Shown here: in pieces, positions 5,595-20,406 of the stretch
How positions within the stretch are numbered: position 1 is the first letter of the stretch
How the letters are laid out: the number at the start of each line of letters is the position of its first letter
Origin: a virus
Reading direction: 5' to 3' (one strand)
Length of the DNA stretch: 22,557 bases
Virus record (IMG/VR): IMGVR_UViG_3300032236_000641
Coordinates: 1-22,557 of that record
Position numbers and translations under genes: made by a program
The notes under the pieces: generated by a model
Seen by the model: only the letters and a program-made list of their open reading frames with translations
Told to the model about the DNA's origin: nothing
Databases searched by the model: none

Positions 5595-6324
5595 AAAAAA
5601 ATGATACAGTAACTGGTATATTTACACCCTCCCCTATGTAGTTATCTGAATCCGGTATAAACTTCATATCTAAATCTGGTGAGATAGAGCTATAGTATTG
5701 ACGTAGAGCTCTTGAATCAGGTGCAAGTAAGTAGTTATCTACGAATTCACGTATTGCTTTTTGTTCTCTATCACCGTTTACTGATGTAATCATAAACTTC
5801 ATCCGTGTTGTGATATCGGTAGTAGTGTTAGGAGAGATCTTTTTAAGACCTTTTATCTCTTTTTCTATCTTTTGTTCATCACCATGAGTTAGTAACTTAA
5901 AGGTCACAACGTTACCTGATTTAGGTAGAGTGTAGGTAAAGTCATTAAGACCTGATTTATACAAATCATAGTCTACGGCTTTGTTCTCTAATATGGATAA
6001 ATCAACAGATACCTGTTGTCCTTCATAGGAAAAGGTGTAGTCTTTACCGTAACCTAAAACCCTTGCAGCTACTAAGATTGCGTTTTTATCGCCAATAAGT
6101 AGATCGTCAAAGTTGATTGGAGTAACGATTAGAGACTGTAATAACTTGTCTAATACTGTACCGTCTTTGATGTAATTACTGTTAGTAAGGATATCTTCCT
6201 CTCTAGCGGTCATATACTTCATTTCTACGGTACCTGATGATAAAGGTGATTCTTTTGGATATAATAACCCTTTGGATGGTAACTCTACCGTTTCTGTTGG
6301 TAGTTTAAATTTTTCTGTTGTCAT
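5575..6324 (-). CDS. gp26-like baseplate hub / tail assembly chaperone protein, zero-frame product
   Basis: A 249-residue protein. The N-terminal part carries the signature seen in T4-type gp26 baseplate hub proteins: VELPSKGLLYP near residues 13-23, then EMKYMTAREEDILTNSNYIK and a DLLIGDKNAILVAARVLGYG stretch around residues 74-93. In T4-like phages gp26 is assigned to baseplate hub assembly; its place just ahead of the tape measure suggests a chaperone that binds the tape measure. The reading frame ends 6 codons after a TTT TTT T run (VSFF then WPDTTA), and another frame continues for 90 codons; see the slippery-site entry. A TATTTATA motif lies 28 nt upstream, and the preceding tube gene is closed by a strong terminator, so this gene probably starts its own transcript. 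Confidence 0.75.
   Translation of the reverse strand: MTTEKFKLPTETVELPSKGLLYPKESPLSSGTVEMKYMTAREEDILTNSNYIKDGTVLDKLLQSLIVTPINFDDLLIGDKNAILVAARVLGYGKDYTFSYEGQQVSVDLSILENKAVDYDLYKSGLNDFTYTLPKSGNVVTFKLLTHGDEQKIEKEIKGLKKISPNTTTDITTRMKFMITSVNGDREQKAIREFVDNYLLAPDSRALRQYYSSISPDLDMKFIPDSDNYIGEGVNIPVTVSFFWPDTTA
5592..5604 (-). promoter_or_regulatory. Slippery heptamer for programmed frameshifting
   Basis: Minus-strand TCA TTT TTT TGG C. Two adjacent Phe codons lie in a run of seven T; moving forward one base lets both tRNAs re-pair on TTT TTT and the next codon becomes GGC, entering the 90-codon open frame. A -2 slip reaches the same frame but pairs worse. A -1 slip would hit TGA two codons later. 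Confidence 0.65.
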
Positions 6325-6350
6325 AAATTGTTTAAGTGTTTATCTATATA

Positions 6351-6359
6351 TATAAATAG
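6351..6359 (-). promoter_or_regulatory. Candidate late promoter motif ahead of gp26-like gene
   Basis: Coding-strand CTATTTATATATATAG, 28 nt from the ATG ending at 6324 and downstream of the terminator at 6396-6421, so it would restart transcription after the tube gene. One of eight recurrent copies. Confidence 0.5.
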
Positions 6360-6395
6360 ACAAAATAATGCTTTTATGCCCTAAATAATCTAAAT

Positions 6396-6421
6396 AAAAA
6401 ATCCCCTATTTTCATAGAGGA
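6396..6421 (-). terminator. Intrinsic terminator after tail tube gene
   Basis: On the minus strand TCCTCTAT, loop GAAA, ATAGGGGA, then TTTTTTATTT. The 8-bp stem (one T-G pair) with a GAAA tetraloop and a T run is a textbook Rho-independent terminator, 30 nt after the tube stop codon. It would cap the highly expressed sheath-tube transcript. Confidence 0.88.
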
Positions 6422-9899: not shown

Positions 9900-9922
9900 A
9901 ATCTAGTTAGAAGCACTAGATT
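9900..9922 (-). other. Perfect inverted repeat at the end of the small membrane-protein gene
   Basis: AATCTAGT, 7-nt spacer, ACTAGATT: an 8-bp perfect stem covering the last codons and stop of the 81-aa membrane protein. On the minus strand it lacks a T run after the stem, while on the plus strand it is followed by six T (9921-9926). As an RNA hairpin it could be an mRNA 3' end or processing site; as a terminator it would act only on antisense transcription. Confidence 0.45.
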
Positions 9923-10148
9923 TTTTACTTTCTTCTATTGCTTTTTTCATTGCCGCTCTTGTTTCGGCAGCAAATGTCTTCATTGATTCGTCAAGCTTTT
10001 GTTCTACTGCTTGTATAGCAGCTTCTTCTTTCTTTACTTCGGTTACTACGTCAATCTCTAATTCAGCTATATCACTATCTTTTACTGCTTTGTAAATATA
10101 AACTCCAGCTACAATTAAAATTGTGAATAAAATGATTAGTCCTAGCAT
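9903..10148 (-). CDS. Small N-anchored membrane protein with helical stalk
   Basis: An 81-residue protein. Residues 2-19 are a single strong membrane segment (LGLIILFTILIVAGVYIY) followed directly by a positive residue, then a charged helical domain (residues 24-75: E, K and A rich) ending in a Ser-rich tail. This type II single-span layout with a long coiled region resembles inner-membrane spanins or membrane-bound accessory proteins, but there is no overlapping lipoprotein partner, so lysis function is only a guess. It follows the APS-kinase gene with its promoter-like motif lying across that gene's stop codon, 20 nt ahead of this ATG. Confidence 0.7.
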   Translation of the reverse strand: MLGLIILFTILIVAGVYIYKAVKDSDIAELEIDVVTEVKKEEAAIQAVEQKLDESMKTFAAETRAAMKKAIEESKKSSASN

Positions 10149-10156
10149 AGTATATA

Positions 10157-10176
10157 GTTTTATACTAATAAATATA
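10157..10176 (-). promoter_or_regulatory. Candidate late promoter, 20-bp perfect copy of the one at 14453
   Basis: Coding strand TATATTTATTAGTATAAAAC, identical over all 20 bases to 14453-14472. It overlaps the last codons and stop of the APS-kinase gene and would drive the small membrane-protein gene whose ATG ends at 10148. Confidence 0.55.
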
Positions 10177-10599
10177 GTCAGAAAAGAAAATATTACATAT
10201 TTCTGACGCTGTTTTATTTGTTGTATCTACAGCAATAAAATTAGTAAGTGGTTGTTCGTAAATAGTATGGTAGTTTTCTTTACCCCTAACCTCACTAGTG
10301 TGAATATAGTATTCTGTTAATTTATTTCCAACCTTTTGTTTGAAATTTTCACGTTGGTCTCTATAAGGTGAAACCATTGCTACTATTACATCTTTATTAT
10401 TTTGATGTAGATAGTAAGCTATATTTTGAGCTAACTCGATATTATCTCGTCTACCTTTTTCAGAATAGTCTTTATTATTGAATAATTTTCTCATCTGGTC
10501 ACCATCTATTAAAAATGCTGATTTGAATCTATCTTTTAATAGTTCTCTGGCAATTGTAGTCTTACCTGCACCCGGTTGTCCAGTTAACCAAATTATCAT
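10165..10599 (-). CDS. cysC: Adenylylsulfate (APS) kinase-like protein
   Basis: A 144-residue P-loop kinase. It has the APS-kinase landmarks in order: Walker A GQPGAGKTT at residues 7-15, FLIDGDQMRKLF at 29-40 (the family's DGD motif), DYSEKGRRDNI at 44-54 and VAMVSPYRDQRENF at 73-86, with Ser77 at the place of the phosphoryl-acceptor-site serine. APS kinase turns APS plus ATP into PAPS, the sulfate donor of sulfotransferases. It is shorter than bacterial CysC (about 200 residues): the lid region before the final YEQPLTNFIAVDTT is cut down, so activity or specificity might differ. The ATG overlaps the sulfotransferase stop (ATGA), tying donor supply to use. No ATP sulfurylase lies in the window, so APS would come from the host. 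A generic phage nucleotide kinase is the alternative. Confidence 0.8.
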   Translation of the reverse strand: MIIWLTGQPGAGKTTIARELLKDRFKSAFLIDGDQMRKLFNNKDYSEKGRRDNIELAQNIAYYLHQNNKDVIVAMVSPYRDQRENFKQKVGNKLTEYYIHTSEVRGKENYHTIYEQPLTNFIAVDTTNKTASEICNIFFSDYIY

Positions 10600-11414
10600 C
10601 TGTATCTAAATTTTTCGTTATACCACTTATAGTTATTCATTATCCAATCACAAACATCTTTACCTAGTATTTGAGTAGCTTTAGATGTTACTGGTTCTAG
10701 TTTAGTTCTGATAACATGATCTCCATAAACACCGTATACTTCATCATCTTCTTTTGTAACCTGTTCTATGTTATCAAAATCATGTTCAAAGAATGGTATG
10801 TCTAGATAAGTGTAAATTCGCTGCATTTCTCTTTCTGGGTATAGACATAAATCTTCAAACTTAACAAATAGTACTTTACTATCTATTCCCATTCTAAGCA
10901 TTTCATTAAGTCTTTCAAATGCCATACCAACTGGTGGATTTTGTACCCACAAATCAATACGCTTAGGTGTTGTAGTACCTTGCATCTTAGACCAATCTAA
11001 TAATGGACTTGCTTTATCACTAGCCTTTCTAAAATTCTTTTCCATTGAAGCAAATATATCTCTTGGATCTCTAACCATACAGATAATCTTTGGATCTGGC
11101 TGTATCATGTTTAGAAAATCATAATGAATACCCCATCCTCTACTCTTATCAATAACATATTTCTTGTCTGTTATTCCATTGTAAAAACCATACATCCCAG
11201 CATGACAGAAATTAAGAAAACCTAATTTCATTAATTCTGCATCTTGTGCTTTGAATTCTGGTGAGTTGGTGTAGTTACCTCTAGCTGCAAATATTAGTTC
11301 AAGAACACCTGAAGTTGGTGTTGCATACATATCTGGATTCTGTGCTAGGATATTTTGTAATAGAGTTGAACCTGCTCTTGGTAATGAGCTTTGATAAAAT
11401 ATTTTTTCTACCAT
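10596..11414 (-). CDS. PAPS-dependent sulfotransferase
   Basis: A 272-residue protein with the two PAPS-binding signatures of the sulfotransferase superfamily: the 5'-phosphosulfate loop SLPRAGSTLLQNIL at residues 10-23 and the 3'-phosphate motif ICMVRDPRDIFASME at 111-125. A later FVKFEDLCLYPEREMQ and the helical C-terminus also fit. Such enzymes move sulfate from PAPS to a hydroxyl on a sugar or on a protein tyrosine; the LPRAGSTLL form is seen in both glycan and tyrosyl-protein types, so the acceptor cannot be told. It starts inside the TAATG junction with the glycosyltransferase and overlaps the APS-kinase ATG by 4 bp, so the three are translated together. No signal peptide: it acts in the cytoplasm. 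The likely substrate is a phage fibre glycan or tyrosine, or a host surface-sugar precursor (inference). Confidence 0.88.
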   Translation of the reverse strand: MVEKIFYQSSLPRAGSTLLQNILAQNPDMYATPTSGVLELIFAARGNYTNSPEFKAQDAELMKLGFLNFCHAGMYGFYNGITDKKYVIDKSRGWGIHYDFLNMIQPDPKIICMVRDPRDIFASMEKNFRKASDKASPLLDWSKMQGTTTPKRIDLWVQNPPVGMAFERLNEMLRMGIDSKVLFVKFEDLCLYPEREMQRIYTYLDIPFFEHDFDNIEQVTKEDDEVYGVYGDHVIRTKLEPVTSKATQILGKDVCDWIMNNYKWYNEKFRYR

Positions 11415-12286
11415 TATTGTTGTTTGATTGATGTAACTATTTGATCTATGTTGAATATTTCTGTTTCACTGTTATATGGAAACTCTAATAAATCTCCTGA
11501 TATATTGAACTTACTTAAATAAGCTCCTTTTAATTCAGGTTTTGTTGTAAATGGATTAGATAGGATATTATCGTGTAAGTCATACCCAAATACATACGGA
11601 TTATTAGCTATCCAGCAAACTGTTGATTTTAATCCTAATGCAGCAGCGGTATGTTGAGCAAAACTATCTATAAATAATCTCTTAGTACTTAGGCTAATCA
11701 AAACAGATAGTGATCTAAAGTTGTCTGTTACCGATACAGTATTATCGTACTGAAATTGGTCTTCTCTCCTTATATGTACTATTGTATACGAATCTTTGAA
11801 TTGGTCTATTACTGCTGTAGCAACAGATCTTGGAATATCTCTAGCCCATGAATACTTCATGTCTGATAAAGCTCCACCATTTGTCTGTAGTAGTAGGATT
11901 GGCTTGTCAAAGTTAAACTTAGTGCTGTAGAATTTCTGCTCTCTACTACTCAAATATACCTTAGGTACCTCACCATCATACTCAATACCAAACATATTAC
12001 ACCAGGTAGCTATTAGATGCTCTTCTTGTAAGAGATGGCTTGTTTCTAGGTATGGATCATGTGCAAATACTTTGAAGTCTTTACCTTCAATATAATCCTC
12101 ATAGAAATAAGAGAAACCTCCAAATGCAAATGTTCTATCTACATTTGGATTATTTAAGAATACATCAGGATAACCTGATACTACGATTAGAGTGGATTTA
12201 GGATACTGTTTTTTAATTGCTTCGCATACGGCTGTAGCCATAATGCATTTACCCATCCCACCATTTATTTGGAAGATAATATTCAT
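11414..12286 (-). CDS. Glycosyltransferase family 9-like (heptosyltransferase-like) protein
   Basis: A 290-residue protein with a two-domain GT-B look. The N-terminus MNIIFQINGGMGKCIMATAV and AIKKQYPKSTLIVVSGYPDV (about residues 24-43) match the ADP-heptose:LPS heptosyltransferase fold with its GGxGK turn. The second domain has LLLQTNGGALSDMKYSWARD (131-150), TIVHIRREDQ (168-177) and LISLSTKRLFIDSFAQHTAA (196-215), then a GLKSTVCWI strand, the region that binds the sugar nucleotide in GT9 proteins. It would add a sugar, unknown which, to a glycan or protein. It is the first of three coupled genes; its TAATG overlap with the sulfotransferase suggests the sugar is then sulfated. Family call is good; donor and acceptor are unknown. 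Confidence 0.75.
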   Translation of the reverse strand: MNIIFQINGGMGKCIMATAVCEAIKKQYPKSTLIVVSGYPDVFLNNPNVDRTFAFGGFSYFYEDYIEGKDFKVFAHDPYLETSHLLQEEHLIATWCNMFGIEYDGEVPKVYLSSREQKFYSTKFNFDKPILLLQTNGGALSDMKYSWARDIPRSVATAVIDQFKDSYTIVHIRREDQFQYDNTVSVTDNFRSLSVLISLSTKRLFIDSFAQHTAAALGLKSTVCWIANNPYVFGYDLHDNILSNPFTTKPELKGAYLSKFNISGDLLEFPYNSETEIFNIDQIVTSIKQQ

Positions 12287-12311
12287 GTAACTAATTTAAT
12301 TCTATAATAAC

Positions 12312-12656
12312 TTAGAATGACATACCAGGTATGTTAGAACCGCTTACTATACCTGTAACAGTAGTACCTACTTGACTAGCTATTATGTGTAGTACAGTAG
12401 TATCATCTGATCCCCAAGTTGATAGTTGGTCAGAAGTTAAAGTTACTTCTTGCTGTGTTACTCTTTCAAATGCTATAACACCGTCTACTCCCATTACTAC
12501 ATTACCGTATAATACTTCAAATCTTGTTTTGTCAGCACCTAATTTATATGGACGTGCTATTGCAGTCATTGCTGAACCAGATACTATTGTTGATTCACCG
12601 AATGGTCCTTTGTTTTGGACTTGTGTTGCTGCAGGATTAATTGTTGCAAATATCAT
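12312..12656 (-). CDS. Hypothetical small protein following the repeat fibre
   Basis: A 114-residue protein with no cysteine, no signal peptide and an all-beta feel: alternating V/T/G stretches such as GESTIVSGSAMTAIARPYK, RFEVLYGNVVMGVDGVIAFE and VTQQEVTLTSDQLSTWGSDD, ending ITGSNIPGMSF-like (TGIVSGSNIPGMSF). I do not recognise the family. It lies 67 nt after the 563-aa repeat fibre and 25 nt ahead of the glycosyltransferase, in the same direction. A fibre-associated tip, adaptor or chaperone is possible from position, as is a small virion decoration protein. Leader is A-rich (AACAATAACAAATG) with no Shine-Dalgarno. Confidence 0.7.
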   Translation of the reverse strand: MIFATINPAATQVQNKGPFGESTIVSGSAMTAIARPYKLGADKTRFEVLYGNVVMGVDGVIAFERVTQQEVTLTSDQLSTWGSDDTTVLHIIASQVGTTVTGIVSGSNIPGMSF

Positions 12657-12723
12657 TTGTTATTGTTTTTATGTTGTTTATAAGCAAATATATGAAATCT
12701 TTTTTGACTTTCCAAAACTATTT

Positions 12724-14415
12724 TTATGTTAATCTTATCTTTAATATACCTGCAGTATGGTAAACACCTCCTACCGGTATTCCTCCGGCTGCTGCTGCTG
12801 TATCATTTGTGAAGTTTTGAGTTTTTATAGTTGGTGATACTAGATTATTTATGTATAGAGAGCAGTCACTAGATGCTGTTAATCCACAACCAATTGCTGC
12901 TGAATAATTTCCTGATACTGTGTTGCTTTTACCACCCGGTATTATTCCATACATTCCAGTAATATTATTGCCATAACCGCCACTTATTGTTGAATAGTTT
13001 GAATTATACCCTGAAATACTATTACCATTACCGCCACTTATTGTTGAATAGTTTGAATTAGTTCCGGTTATACCGTTACTCTGTCCCCCACCTATTATGG
13101 ATTGTACTGAATGTTGTCCAGTTATACTGTTAAAACTACCACCTCCTATAAATGAATAGTATGTACTCTCTCCACTAATACTATTATTGTAACCACCACT
13201 TATTGTTGAATAGTTTGAACATGTTCCTGAAATACTGTTGCTATAACCACCACTTATTGTTGAATAGCTTGAATTACAACCACAAATATGGCTATTTTTA
13301 CCACCACCTATTGTTGAATAACATGAATTTGTTCCTGAAATAGCATTGTCACGGCCACCACCTATGGTTGAAAATTGTGAGTGTTGTCCAGAAATACTGT
13401 TAGTACTACCGCCACCTATTGTTGAATATTGGGAATATGTTCCACTAATATTATTATTGTAACCGCCACTTATTGTTGAAGTTTGTGAATAACACCCTGA
13501 AATATTATTACCTGTACCACCACCAATTGTTGAGTAATATGAATTACACCCTGAAATACTATTAACTACCCCACCACCAATTGATGAGAAGTATGAATTA
13601 TTACCATTTATACAGTTACCCTCACCACCTGAGATTGTGGATCCTTGTGAATTAATTCCAGGAATCTGATTATTGTAGCCACCACTAATAGTTGAACAGT
13701 TTGCATTATTTGATGATACAATCGAATTATTGTACCCTCCGCTTATAGTTGCATTACAGGCATATGGTGATGATATTATATTACCAAGACCTCCTCCTAT
13801 TGTTGCAAACACTGCGTAACATCCAGAAATAGTATTACTACTACCCCCACTAATTGTCATACCTACACCGTAATATCCTGAAGCAGTGTTGTTACTACCT
13901 CCTGCTATTGTTGAGCGAGATGTATCATTTGAACTATTAATAGTGTTAGTACAACCACCACTTATTGTAGAGCATTGGCCTAGAACGGTGTTATTGTTAC
14001 AGTCTCTAACTGTAGATCCAGCACCTGCTCCTTGTATCATAACACCACCTCCCCCACCACCATTTAAAGCGTATGAAGCAGTAACTGCACAACTAGCAGT
14101 ACCTGTGATACCATTTGTTACAGTCAGTGAACCAGTTATAATAAGTGTGTCAGCATTCGATGTAAACACGCTACCCGTTACAGATGAAGATACTGCTAAT
14201 GAACCTGTGATAACAGCATTACCTGTATATGGAAATGCAGCTCCACCTCCTCCATTCATTGCATATGAAGCGGTTAGTGCGTAAGAGGCTGATGTTGCGT
14301 TTGTGGCAGAACCAGATAGACTACCTGTGATACCGTTTGTTACGATTAGAGAACCGGATACGACTGTATTGTTCTTGGTAATAATACCATTACGGGCTAT
14401 AAATTCATTTGCCAT
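12724..14415 (-). CDS. Tail fibre with about twenty 18-residue STIGGG/SISG repeats
   Basis: A 563-residue fibre-type protein. Residues 1-128 hold ITGSL-type beta repeats and ASYA segments (SATNATSASYALTASYAMNG, FPYTGNAVITGSLAV) also present in the 946-aa fibre. Residues 149-511 are about twenty 18-residue repeats of the pattern YSTIxGGxxNxISGxxSx, much like the left-handed beta-roll of YadA-type adhesin heads, ending in a degenerate unit AAIGCGL. The last 50 residues (ending GGVYHTAGILKIRLT) form a separate cap. The protein has 16 cysteines, mostly at fixed repeat positions, which is unusual for an external phage fibre. It is likely a trimeric host-binding fibre. Candidate promoter 49 nt upstream; the sugar/sulfate genes follow in the same direction. 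Confidence 0.82.
   Translation of the reverse strand: MANEFIARNGIITKNNTVVSGSLIVTNGITGSLSGSATNATSASYALTASYAMNGGGGAAFPYTGNAVITGSLAVSSSVTGSVFTSNADTLIITGSLTVTNGITGTASCAVTASYALNGGGGGGVMIQGAGAGSTVRDCNNNTVLGQCSTISGGCTNTINSSNDTSRSTIAGGSNNTASGYYGVGMTISGGSSNTISGCYAVFATIGGGLGNIISSPYACNATISGGYNNSIVSSNNANCSTISGGYNNQIPGINSQGSTISGGEGNCINGNNSYFSSIGGGVVNSISGCNSYYSTIGGGTGNNISGCYSQTSTISGGYNNNISGTYSQYSTIGGGSTNSISGQHSQFSTIGGGRDNAISGTNSCYSTIGGGKNSHICGCNSSYSTISGGYSNSISGTCSNYSTISGGYNNSISGESTYYSFIGGGSFNSITGQHSVQSIIGGGQSNGITGTNSNYSTISGGNGNSISGYNSNYSTISGGYGNNITGMYGIIPGGKSNTVSGNYSAAIGCGLTASSDCSLYINNLVSPTIKTQNFTNDTAAAAGGIPVGGVYHTAGILKIRLT
12883..13971 (-). repeat. In-frame 54-bp tandem repeat array of the fibre
   Basis: About twenty tandem 54-bp units coding for 18-residue repeats with core STI(S/G)GG and (N)SISG. 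Units differ in sequence, with the TTGTTGAATA-like stretch most conserved on the plus strand. Unit number may vary between relatives through slippage or recombination. Confidence 0.88.
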
Positions 14416-19442: not shown

Positions 19443-19898
19443 TTACATGTGAATTGTTTTTACACCAGGACACATTTCTCTAATTTCTTCTTTAGTGTAT
19501 TTTTTAGAAAATGGAGTATTTCTTAAATAAAGAGTTCTACCTACTTTTAAATCTTGAGGTAGAGAAGTGATTTTACTACTGTTCAAATTAAGACCTCCAC
19601 CTATTTCTAAACCTTGAGGTAGAGAGGTAATTGAAGTATTATATAAAATAAGATTTCCGCCTACTTTAAAATCTTTAGGTAAAGATGTGATTGAAGTACT
19701 ACTTAACCAAAGATCACCACTTACTTTTAAATCTTGAGGTAGAGAAGTGATTTTAGTGCCACTTAAATCAAGATTACCTTCTATATTCAAATCTTTAGGG
19801 GTTAGAGATTCAGGTTCGTACACAAACCTGTACTTAATAGGCTTTTTTCTACCATCTTTCTTTTCTAGAAAATCAAAAAATTGTTTTATGTGATTCAT
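19443..19898 (-). CDS. Small leucine-rich-repeat protein inserted between neck genes
   Basis: A 151-residue protein, read from the ATG ending at 19898; an ATG at 19952 would lengthen it by 18 residues but overlaps the gp14-like gene by 44 bp and adds unlikely sequence. After a charged N-terminus (MNHIKQFFDFLEKKDGRKKP) come four full 20-residue repeats at 37-116, of the kind GNLDLSGTKITSLPQDLKV, then a fifth partial one and a C-terminal cap YTKEEIREMCPGVK. This short LRR type with the same cap recurs in phage genomes. No signal peptide, so cytoplasmic or virion. Its site between two neck genes, 10 nt from each neighbour, marks it as a likely late insertion (moron); function unknown, possibly protein binding. 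Confidence 0.8.
   Translation of the reverse strand: MNHIKQFFDFLEKKDGRKKPIKYRFVYEPESLTPKDLNIEGNLDLSGTKITSLPQDLKVSGDLWLSSTSITSLPKDFKVGGNLILYNTSITSLPQGLEIGGGLNLNSSKITSLPQDLKVGRTLYLRNTPFSKKYTKEEIREMCPGVKTIHM
19509..19790 (-). repeat. 60-bp tandem repeats encoding LRR units
   Basis: Four full and one partial 60-bp in-frame unit, core ITSLPQDLKVGGNLxLxxT. The plus-strand text aaatcttgaggtagagaagt recurs with few changes. Confidence 0.85.
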
Positions 19899-19908
19899 TA
19901 TATTATAA

Positions 19909-20406
19909 TTAATTACCCGGTATAACCTTATCAAGATTAAGTCTAAATCCACGAGTTAAGTGAGTTGATAATACTACAGAATAGTTATTACCAAAGTTTT
20001 CTAATCCTGATGAATAAGCGTATTGATTATCTTTACCCATTACAAGTTGATTGAAGTTAACATTATCTACTTCGTAGAATACTTCATTATACATCACAAT
20101 ATCACCTACTTCAGACATTATATTTGCATCCTCCATATCATCACGTAGGAATCTAAATGTAACGTCACGATCTGTATCAACCCCAAAATCATCTACTGGT
20201 GCTCTAAAATCTCCTCTTTCAATTAAACAGTTAAAAAGTACCGGTCCTATGTAGCTTTTATTTAAAGACTCACCGTAGATATTTGCCGGTGTGGACTGTA
20301 GAGAAAGCTTATAATACCCAACTTGTTGCGTGATAATATCATTTACAAGCTCTTTTGAGAAAAGCTTGAAAGTATCTATATCGTTTATTGATCCAAAGAT
20401 TGCCAT
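19909..20406 (-). CDS. Neck protein (T4 gp14 type)
   Basis: A 165-residue protein: MAIFGSINDIDTFKLFSKEL, LVNDIITQQVGYYKLSLQST, a beta-rich middle with NCLIERGDFRAPVDDFGVDT and FRFLRDDMEDANIMSEVGDI, then VMYNEVFYEVDNVNFNQLVM. The GD(I)V..NE.FYEVDN..NQ pattern is like T4 gp14, which with gp13 forms the neck between head and tail. It starts 2 nt after the gp13-like gene, matching the 13-14 order of T4. A possible copy of the TATTTAT motif lies 10 nt upstream, within the end of the preceding gene, but coding need explains it. Confidence 0.65.
   Translation of the reverse strand: MAIFGSINDIDTFKLFSKELVNDIITQQVGYYKLSLQSTPANIYGESLNKSYIGPVLFNCLIERGDFRAPVDDFGVDTDRDVTFRFLRDDMEDANIMSEVGDIVMYNEVFYEVDNVNFNQLVMGKDNQYAYSSGLENFGNNYSVVLSTHLTRGFRLNLDKVIPGN

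Follow-up and report, generated by a model that had tools for sequence, protein, structure and literature searches.

Among the enzymes that modify repetitive surface proteins of bacteria, TibC O-glycosylates serines in the beta-helical repeats of an autotransporter (PMC4358343). In viruses, cysC has been considered mainly from a metabolic perspective: freshwater phages bearing this gene are reported to be widespread and transcribed, and have been read as affecting sulfate assimilation (PMC10914622), and viral cysC from both freshwater and the deep sea has been interpreted as a gene of assimilatory sulfate reduction (PMC10914622, PMC9529941), with no mention of a sulfotransferase in the main text of either paper. 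No sulfated bacteriophage virions were found in the open-access literature searched.

The stretch of DNA analysed here (the window) is a 22,557-base IMG/VR virus record, IMGVR_UViG_3300032236_000641, from a virus that infects freshwater bacteria. The genes are encoded on the minus strand and mark the virus as a contractile-tailed phage, with PhoH-like, head-tail adaptor, fibre, sheath, tube, hub, tape measure and baseplate wedge genes among them. Three of them are placed between a repeat fibre and a small gene on one side and tail genes on the other:

12724-14415, minus strand: repeat fibre with 19 repeat copies, the putative substrate
12312-12656, minus strand: small conserved gene (114 aa), situated between the fibre gene and GT
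12286-11414, minus strand: GT, candidate GT9-like (GT-B fold) glycosyltransferase, 290 aa
11414-10596, minus strand: ST, predicted PAPS-type sulfotransferase, 272 aa
10599-10165, minus strand: APSK, short-lid APS-kinase-like protein, 144 aa

The three overlapping open reading frames described in the initial annotation are present, and their junctions read TAATG (GT/ST) and ATGA (ST/APSK). The same annotation had placed them right after a fibre gene; the fibre is indeed adjacent, but contact is not immediate, as the small gene intervenes. Many loci have a homologue of this small gene immediately before GT, with an identity that is mostly 30-56% and reaches 99% in the closest relatives, and its product is probably a fibre-associated protein. 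Two other ORFs of the window were noted: one directly after APSK (9903-10148), encoding a small membrane-type protein with a weak Rz-like spanin match (phrog_5151, 0.0013), and a leucine-rich-repeat-like ORF with a GTG start (19443-19952), which overlaps the neighbouring gene at 19909-20406.

Scans of viral contigs yielded 74 distinct GT loci, 67 of which have at least 2.5 kb downstream of GT and were eligible for the gene-order count. In 58 of the 67, ST is found no more than 1 kb from GT, and GT, ST and APSK occur together in 47; the neighbourhood, which the initial annotation allowed might be conserved in no relative, thus recurs. The commonest spacing between ST and APSK is a 4-nt overlap (31 loci). 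With dN/dS values of 0.04-0.15 against the close relatives L001 and L002, the three genes are under purifying selection, and these low values, together with a gene order kept in dozens of viral contigs, argue that the module is not a product of chance. ST is single-copy where examined and is absent from two GT-bearing phage records (L155 and L173). Some modules contain additional enzymes: L122 and L152 have a GT25 homologue, and in L153 ST is fused to an FkbM methyltransferase. A marine virus of the Kyanoviridae (L218, MH319754.1) carries two sulfotransferases and the GT (470-1297, 10690-11616 and 11980-12876) near large fibre-like ORFs, and no APS kinase was recognised in the stretch read.

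Judged by its sequence, ST belongs with the PAPS-type sulfotransferases. It matches PF13469 (Sulfotransfer_3; 5.9e-21, 76.2 bits against a cut-off of 27) and PF00685 (Sulfotransfer_1; 1.3e-15), both above the curated cut-offs, and the two PAPS motifs that had been recognised initially are conserved throughout the family alignment:

ST residues 9-18: 5'-PSB motif, SSLPRAGSTL
ST residues 115-123: 3'-PB motif, RDPRDIFAS

The invariant residues of this alignment are R13, S16, T17, K109, R115 and S123. The family profile also matches solved sulfotransferases, the best in the PDB being protein-tyrosine sulfotransferases (5.9e-12).

GT has no credible Pfam match, with none to PF01075 at E ≤ 0.1, and neither single-sequence nor profile searches of the PDB gave a credible match. 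Structure prediction, a check suggested with the initial annotation, placed both GT and APSK, whose models match GT9 enzymes and APS kinases, respectively, in Foldseek. The AF2 model of GT (pLDDT 92.8) begins directly with the GT-B N-lobe and matches the GT9 structure 3tov (3.5e-13), WaaF (1psw, 1.5e-10) and TibC (1.1e-7), as well as WaaC. The GT9-like label proposed at the outset is therefore retained for the fold and not as a PF01075 family match; it rests on structure because Pfam offers nothing credible. On the model, GT appears to be a GT9-like enzyme of GT-B fold whose nearest counterparts are GT9 enzymes, among them TibC, a protein O-heptosyltransferase. In GT9 enzymes such as WaaC, the catalytic residue is an Asp in an N-terminal G-D motif. 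At the apparent position of this residue, the sequence alignment of the GT family shows an invariant lysine, K13, an apparent substitution that counts against the reading favoured below. The counterpart of the catalytic Asp in TibC is Asp110 (PMC4358343).

APSK exceeds the cut-off of PF01583 (2.3e-19, 70.4 bits against 21.1) and reaches 69.6 bits against TIGR00455, below the cut-off of 138.7. Each of the best 42 Foldseek PDB matches of its model (pLDDT 89.9) is either an APS kinase or a PAPS synthase, the APS kinases 8a8h, 1m7g and 7yq1 among them. Zeta toxin and polynucleotide kinase were set aside on score. Across 35 sequences, K13 of the P-loop, D32-G33-D34, R37 and R50 are invariant, and N53, P78 and R83 are further invariant residues of the family; the two arginines that bind the phosphosulfate of APS in M. 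tuberculosis CysC, Arg483 and Arg497 (PMC4373884), are kept. As for the key residues on which the initial annotation made its proposal depend, those that bind APS are thus in place, but the canonical lid is largely gone in all phage members: compared with canonical APS kinases, APSK lacks approximately 20-30 residues, chiefly from the lid, most of which is missing in all 41 viral sequences aligned. The lid of M. tuberculosis CysC spans residues 552-581, with Lys562 and Phe576 contacting APS, and one mutation in this lid is enough to abolish activity (PMC4373884). Given that mutation and the extent of the loss in the phage proteins, the APS kinase activity of APSK is uncertain; an invariant R105-G106 may stand in for part of the lid.

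In one locus, L210, GT, ST and a repeat fibre are accompanied by a canonical full-length APS kinase in the APSK slot, which scores above the NCBIfam cut-off (143.7 against 138.7 bits). In many module loci, a nucleotidyltransferase of approximately 133 aa with an HxGH motif overlaps or follows APSK (L069:8425-8826 and L158:10116-10514, among others). This partner also accompanies APSK in 72 of the 72 APSK-only loci, which lack GT-ST, and phrog_10255 unites the two in one protein. The closest sequence relative of the partner is NMN adenylyltransferase, and a role as ATP sulfurylase would be a guess. The partner is absent from the window and was not found in the window's 139.9-kb relative or in four other near relatives, all of which may be fragments; because it was not found there, the APS of the window module would have to come from the host. 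PF01507 (CysH/CysD) was detected in 0 of the 25 GT-ST-bearing viral records (control genomes were positive in 14 of 14) and the ATP sulfurylase family PF01747 in none, the 25 records totalling approximately 3.1 Mb and including some near-duplicates and many fragments. Another sulfotransferase-like family, divergent from ST, is represented close to APSK in 18 of the 38 APSK-only loci whose upstream sequence is long enough (L115:6837-7544; L072:4800-5600 and 5692-6399), and since only about half of the phages that have the APSK-nucleotidyltransferase pair without GT-ST, and enough sequence, show such a neighbour, the pair may have further uses. A few genes after this pair, L069 (11659-13074) and L072 (10432-11847) carry a gene like those of DHH-type phosphoesterases, enzymes able to clear the PAP that sulfation leaves behind.

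The window fibre is built from a repeat of mostly 18 aa, S-T-I-x-G-G-x-x-N-x-I-S-G-x-x-S-x-Y, and fibres of relatives match the beta-roll family PF21300, one of them with an S74 chaperone. A repeat-fibre ORF is present in 49 of the 74 distinct phage GT loci, as scored with a loose pattern; a strict pattern overlooked the majority of fibres, the one in the window among them. The upstream sequence is short in 15 of the remaining loci; the other 10, with at least 5 kb upstream, have no repeat-fibre ORF, showing other fibre types or no detected repeat fibre. The 72 APSK loci lacking GT and ST (479 kb) yielded no repeat ORF, and few of them include fibre genes. With the repeat fibre as query, tblastn against annotated phages gave no match, for which the low-complexity filter is perhaps responsible, and the viral scan returned two already known loci only. 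Serine occupies repeat position -4 in 78% of window, 64% of phage and 57% of bacterial repeats.

The bacterial repeats were obtained when the GT alignment was run against genomes of bacteria and archaea, which gave homologues almost only in Bacteroidota MAGs. There, ST usually comes after GT, and a repeat protein resembling the phage fibre comes before GT. A repeat ORF lies within 4 kb upstream of GT in 13 of the 16 loci with enough upstream sequence, compared with 3 of the 191 ORFs that make up the rest of these stretches. The bacterial GT is in some loci fused to an FkbM methyltransferase. In most, a gene lying between those of the repeat protein and GT encodes a secreted protein with NHL repeats and a T9SS sorting domain (L193:7609-9492, L200:8614-9954), which may act as a partner or as another substrate. 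CysD, CysN and CysC are also present in L200 and L203, as fits a PAPS-using locus, and a full-length APS kinase homologue in L196 and L204. No other phage genes were recognised in the Bacteroidota MAG loci except in L208, a phage contig binned with a MAG; because of this contig, and because the GTs of L210 and L211 group with phage sequences in the GT tree, not all MAG loci are chromosomal. With these three excluded, 20 GTs form one clade (100/100) among the phage sequences, in a tree rooted at the midpoint, which gives no direction of transfer between phage and Bacteroidota. The bacterial GT-ST cassette and the fibre gene may have moved as one block, and for this reason the bacterial linkage is not fully independent.

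Because relatives of GT and ST adjoin a similar repeat protein on bacterial chromosomes, the three enzymes probably equip the fibre with sulfated sugar, and linkage makes the repeat fibre a reasonably probable target. The explanation that we favour, with a confidence somewhat above even, is a virion-modification cassette. GT would transfer a sugar from a host nucleotide-sugar donor to Ser/Thr of the beta-roll repeats in the adjoining fibre, ST would move sulfate from PAPS onto that sugar or, less likely, directly onto the protein, and APSK would produce PAPS locally from host APS. TibC, which shares the fold of GT, provides a precedent for the first of these steps. The fibre might benefit by acquiring charge, and so, for instance, withstand proteases, mimic or bind the host surface, or alter adsorption. 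We infer the reactions, the fibre target, the order of sugar then sulfate and the benefit alike. That the module performs sulfation chemistry is likely, this part being well supported by the families, the folds, the gene order and the canonical APS kinase that replaces APSK in L210. The initial interpretation, a sugar followed by sulfate with a phage-encoded PAPS supply, keeps its chemistry, and between the fibre and host targets that it left open, linkage favours the fibre. The main weaknesses are the loss of the APSK lid, the catalytic residue of GT and the possible block inheritance of bacterial fibre and enzymes. The ten phage GT loci with at least 5 kb upstream in which no repeat fibre was detected, and the two GT-bearing records that lack ST, also count against this account.

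A different target is conceivable, with the enzymes altering LPS or capsule glycans on the surface of the infected host so as to change the receptor and exclude other phages. WaaC and WaaF, both of GT9, are LPS glycosyltransferases, some cyanophages have a sulfotransferase near glycosyltransferase and nucleotide-sugar genes, and other glycosyltransferases lie nearby in related phages. The module, however, sits inside a same-orientation run of structural genes, next to fibre genes, and the bacterial GT-ST stands beside the repeat protein, largely among housekeeping genes, in the loci listed, which are not evident polysaccharide clusters (L205 is a partial exception). Linkage in phages and in Bacteroidota chromosomes therefore favours the fibre, and a host glycan seems rather unlikely. 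Alternatively, ST could sulfate Tyr (or Ser/Thr) of the fibre directly while GT acts on other residues, an arrangement that we regard as improbable. Many window repeats end in Tyr, and the best PDB profile matches of ST are to protein-tyrosine sulfotransferases, but in bacterial repeats the conservation of Tyr is poor (27% at best), ST almost never occurs apart from GT, and the catalytic Glu of TPST enzymes does not appear conserved in the ST alignment.

The remaining alternatives concern APSK. Its invariant APS-binding residues speak against a pair of APSK and nucleotidyltransferase that makes a product other than PAPS, for instance in NAD or nucleotide metabolism, and is merely carried along with GT-ST. 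So do the window and its nearest relatives, which keep APSK without the nucleotidyltransferase, the canonical enzyme of L210, which replaces APSK beside the same nucleotidyltransferase partner, and the divergent sulfotransferase-like genes near APSK in 18 of 38 loci. Such a product would nevertheless suit the constant pairing in the 72 loci without GT-ST, several of which show no sulfotransferase nearby, the fusion in phrog_10255, the likeness to NMN adenylyltransferase and the missing lid; we assign it a low probability. Disfavoured, and very improbable in our view, is a sulfur-assimilation auxiliary metabolic gene, the usual annotation of viral cysC in the published work: PF01507 was not found in the 25 GT-ST-bearing records, many of them fragments, and the APSK gene overlaps the gene for a PAPS consumer, the sulfotransferase.

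On a broader and more tentative level, phages may make sulfated glycoprotein fibres with their own PAPS supply, Bacteroidota may have taken over (or given) the fibre-GT-ST cassette as a sulfated surface protein, and some phage lineages may add a PAPS route of nucleotidyltransferase and short-lid APS kinase. If this is true, much aquatic viral 'cysC' would serve virion sulfation and not sulfur assimilation. A common inference of viral ecology is thereby questioned, as freshwater cysC phages (PMC10914622) may make PAPS for sulfation instead, and the locus gives this general idea testable enzymes and a named target.

Among known systems, four come closest to the locus. The sulfotransferases of cyanophages S-SKS1, S-SCSM1 and S-SRM01 are of the same broad family as ST (28-29% identical), but the regions read show no GT-ST-APSK arrangement. 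The 'kinase' phrog_10255 matches APSK in its N-terminal half and the partner nucleotidyltransferase in its C-terminal half, and differs from the window APSK in being a single fused protein. Published viral cysC, like APSK, comprises aquatic viral APS-kinase-like genes, whereas APSK overlaps a sulfotransferase gene in a fibre locus, and no PF01507 gene was found in the 25 records. With TibC-TibA and AAH-AIDA-I, the locus shares a GT9-like GT-B fold, a repetitive beta-helical surface protein as the target of the known enzyme, and a glycosyltransferase gene adjoining that of a repeat protein. Unlike TibC, GT (290 aa) is without an N-terminal beta-barrel, and the window module adds a sulfotransferase and an APS kinase and sits in a phage tail region.
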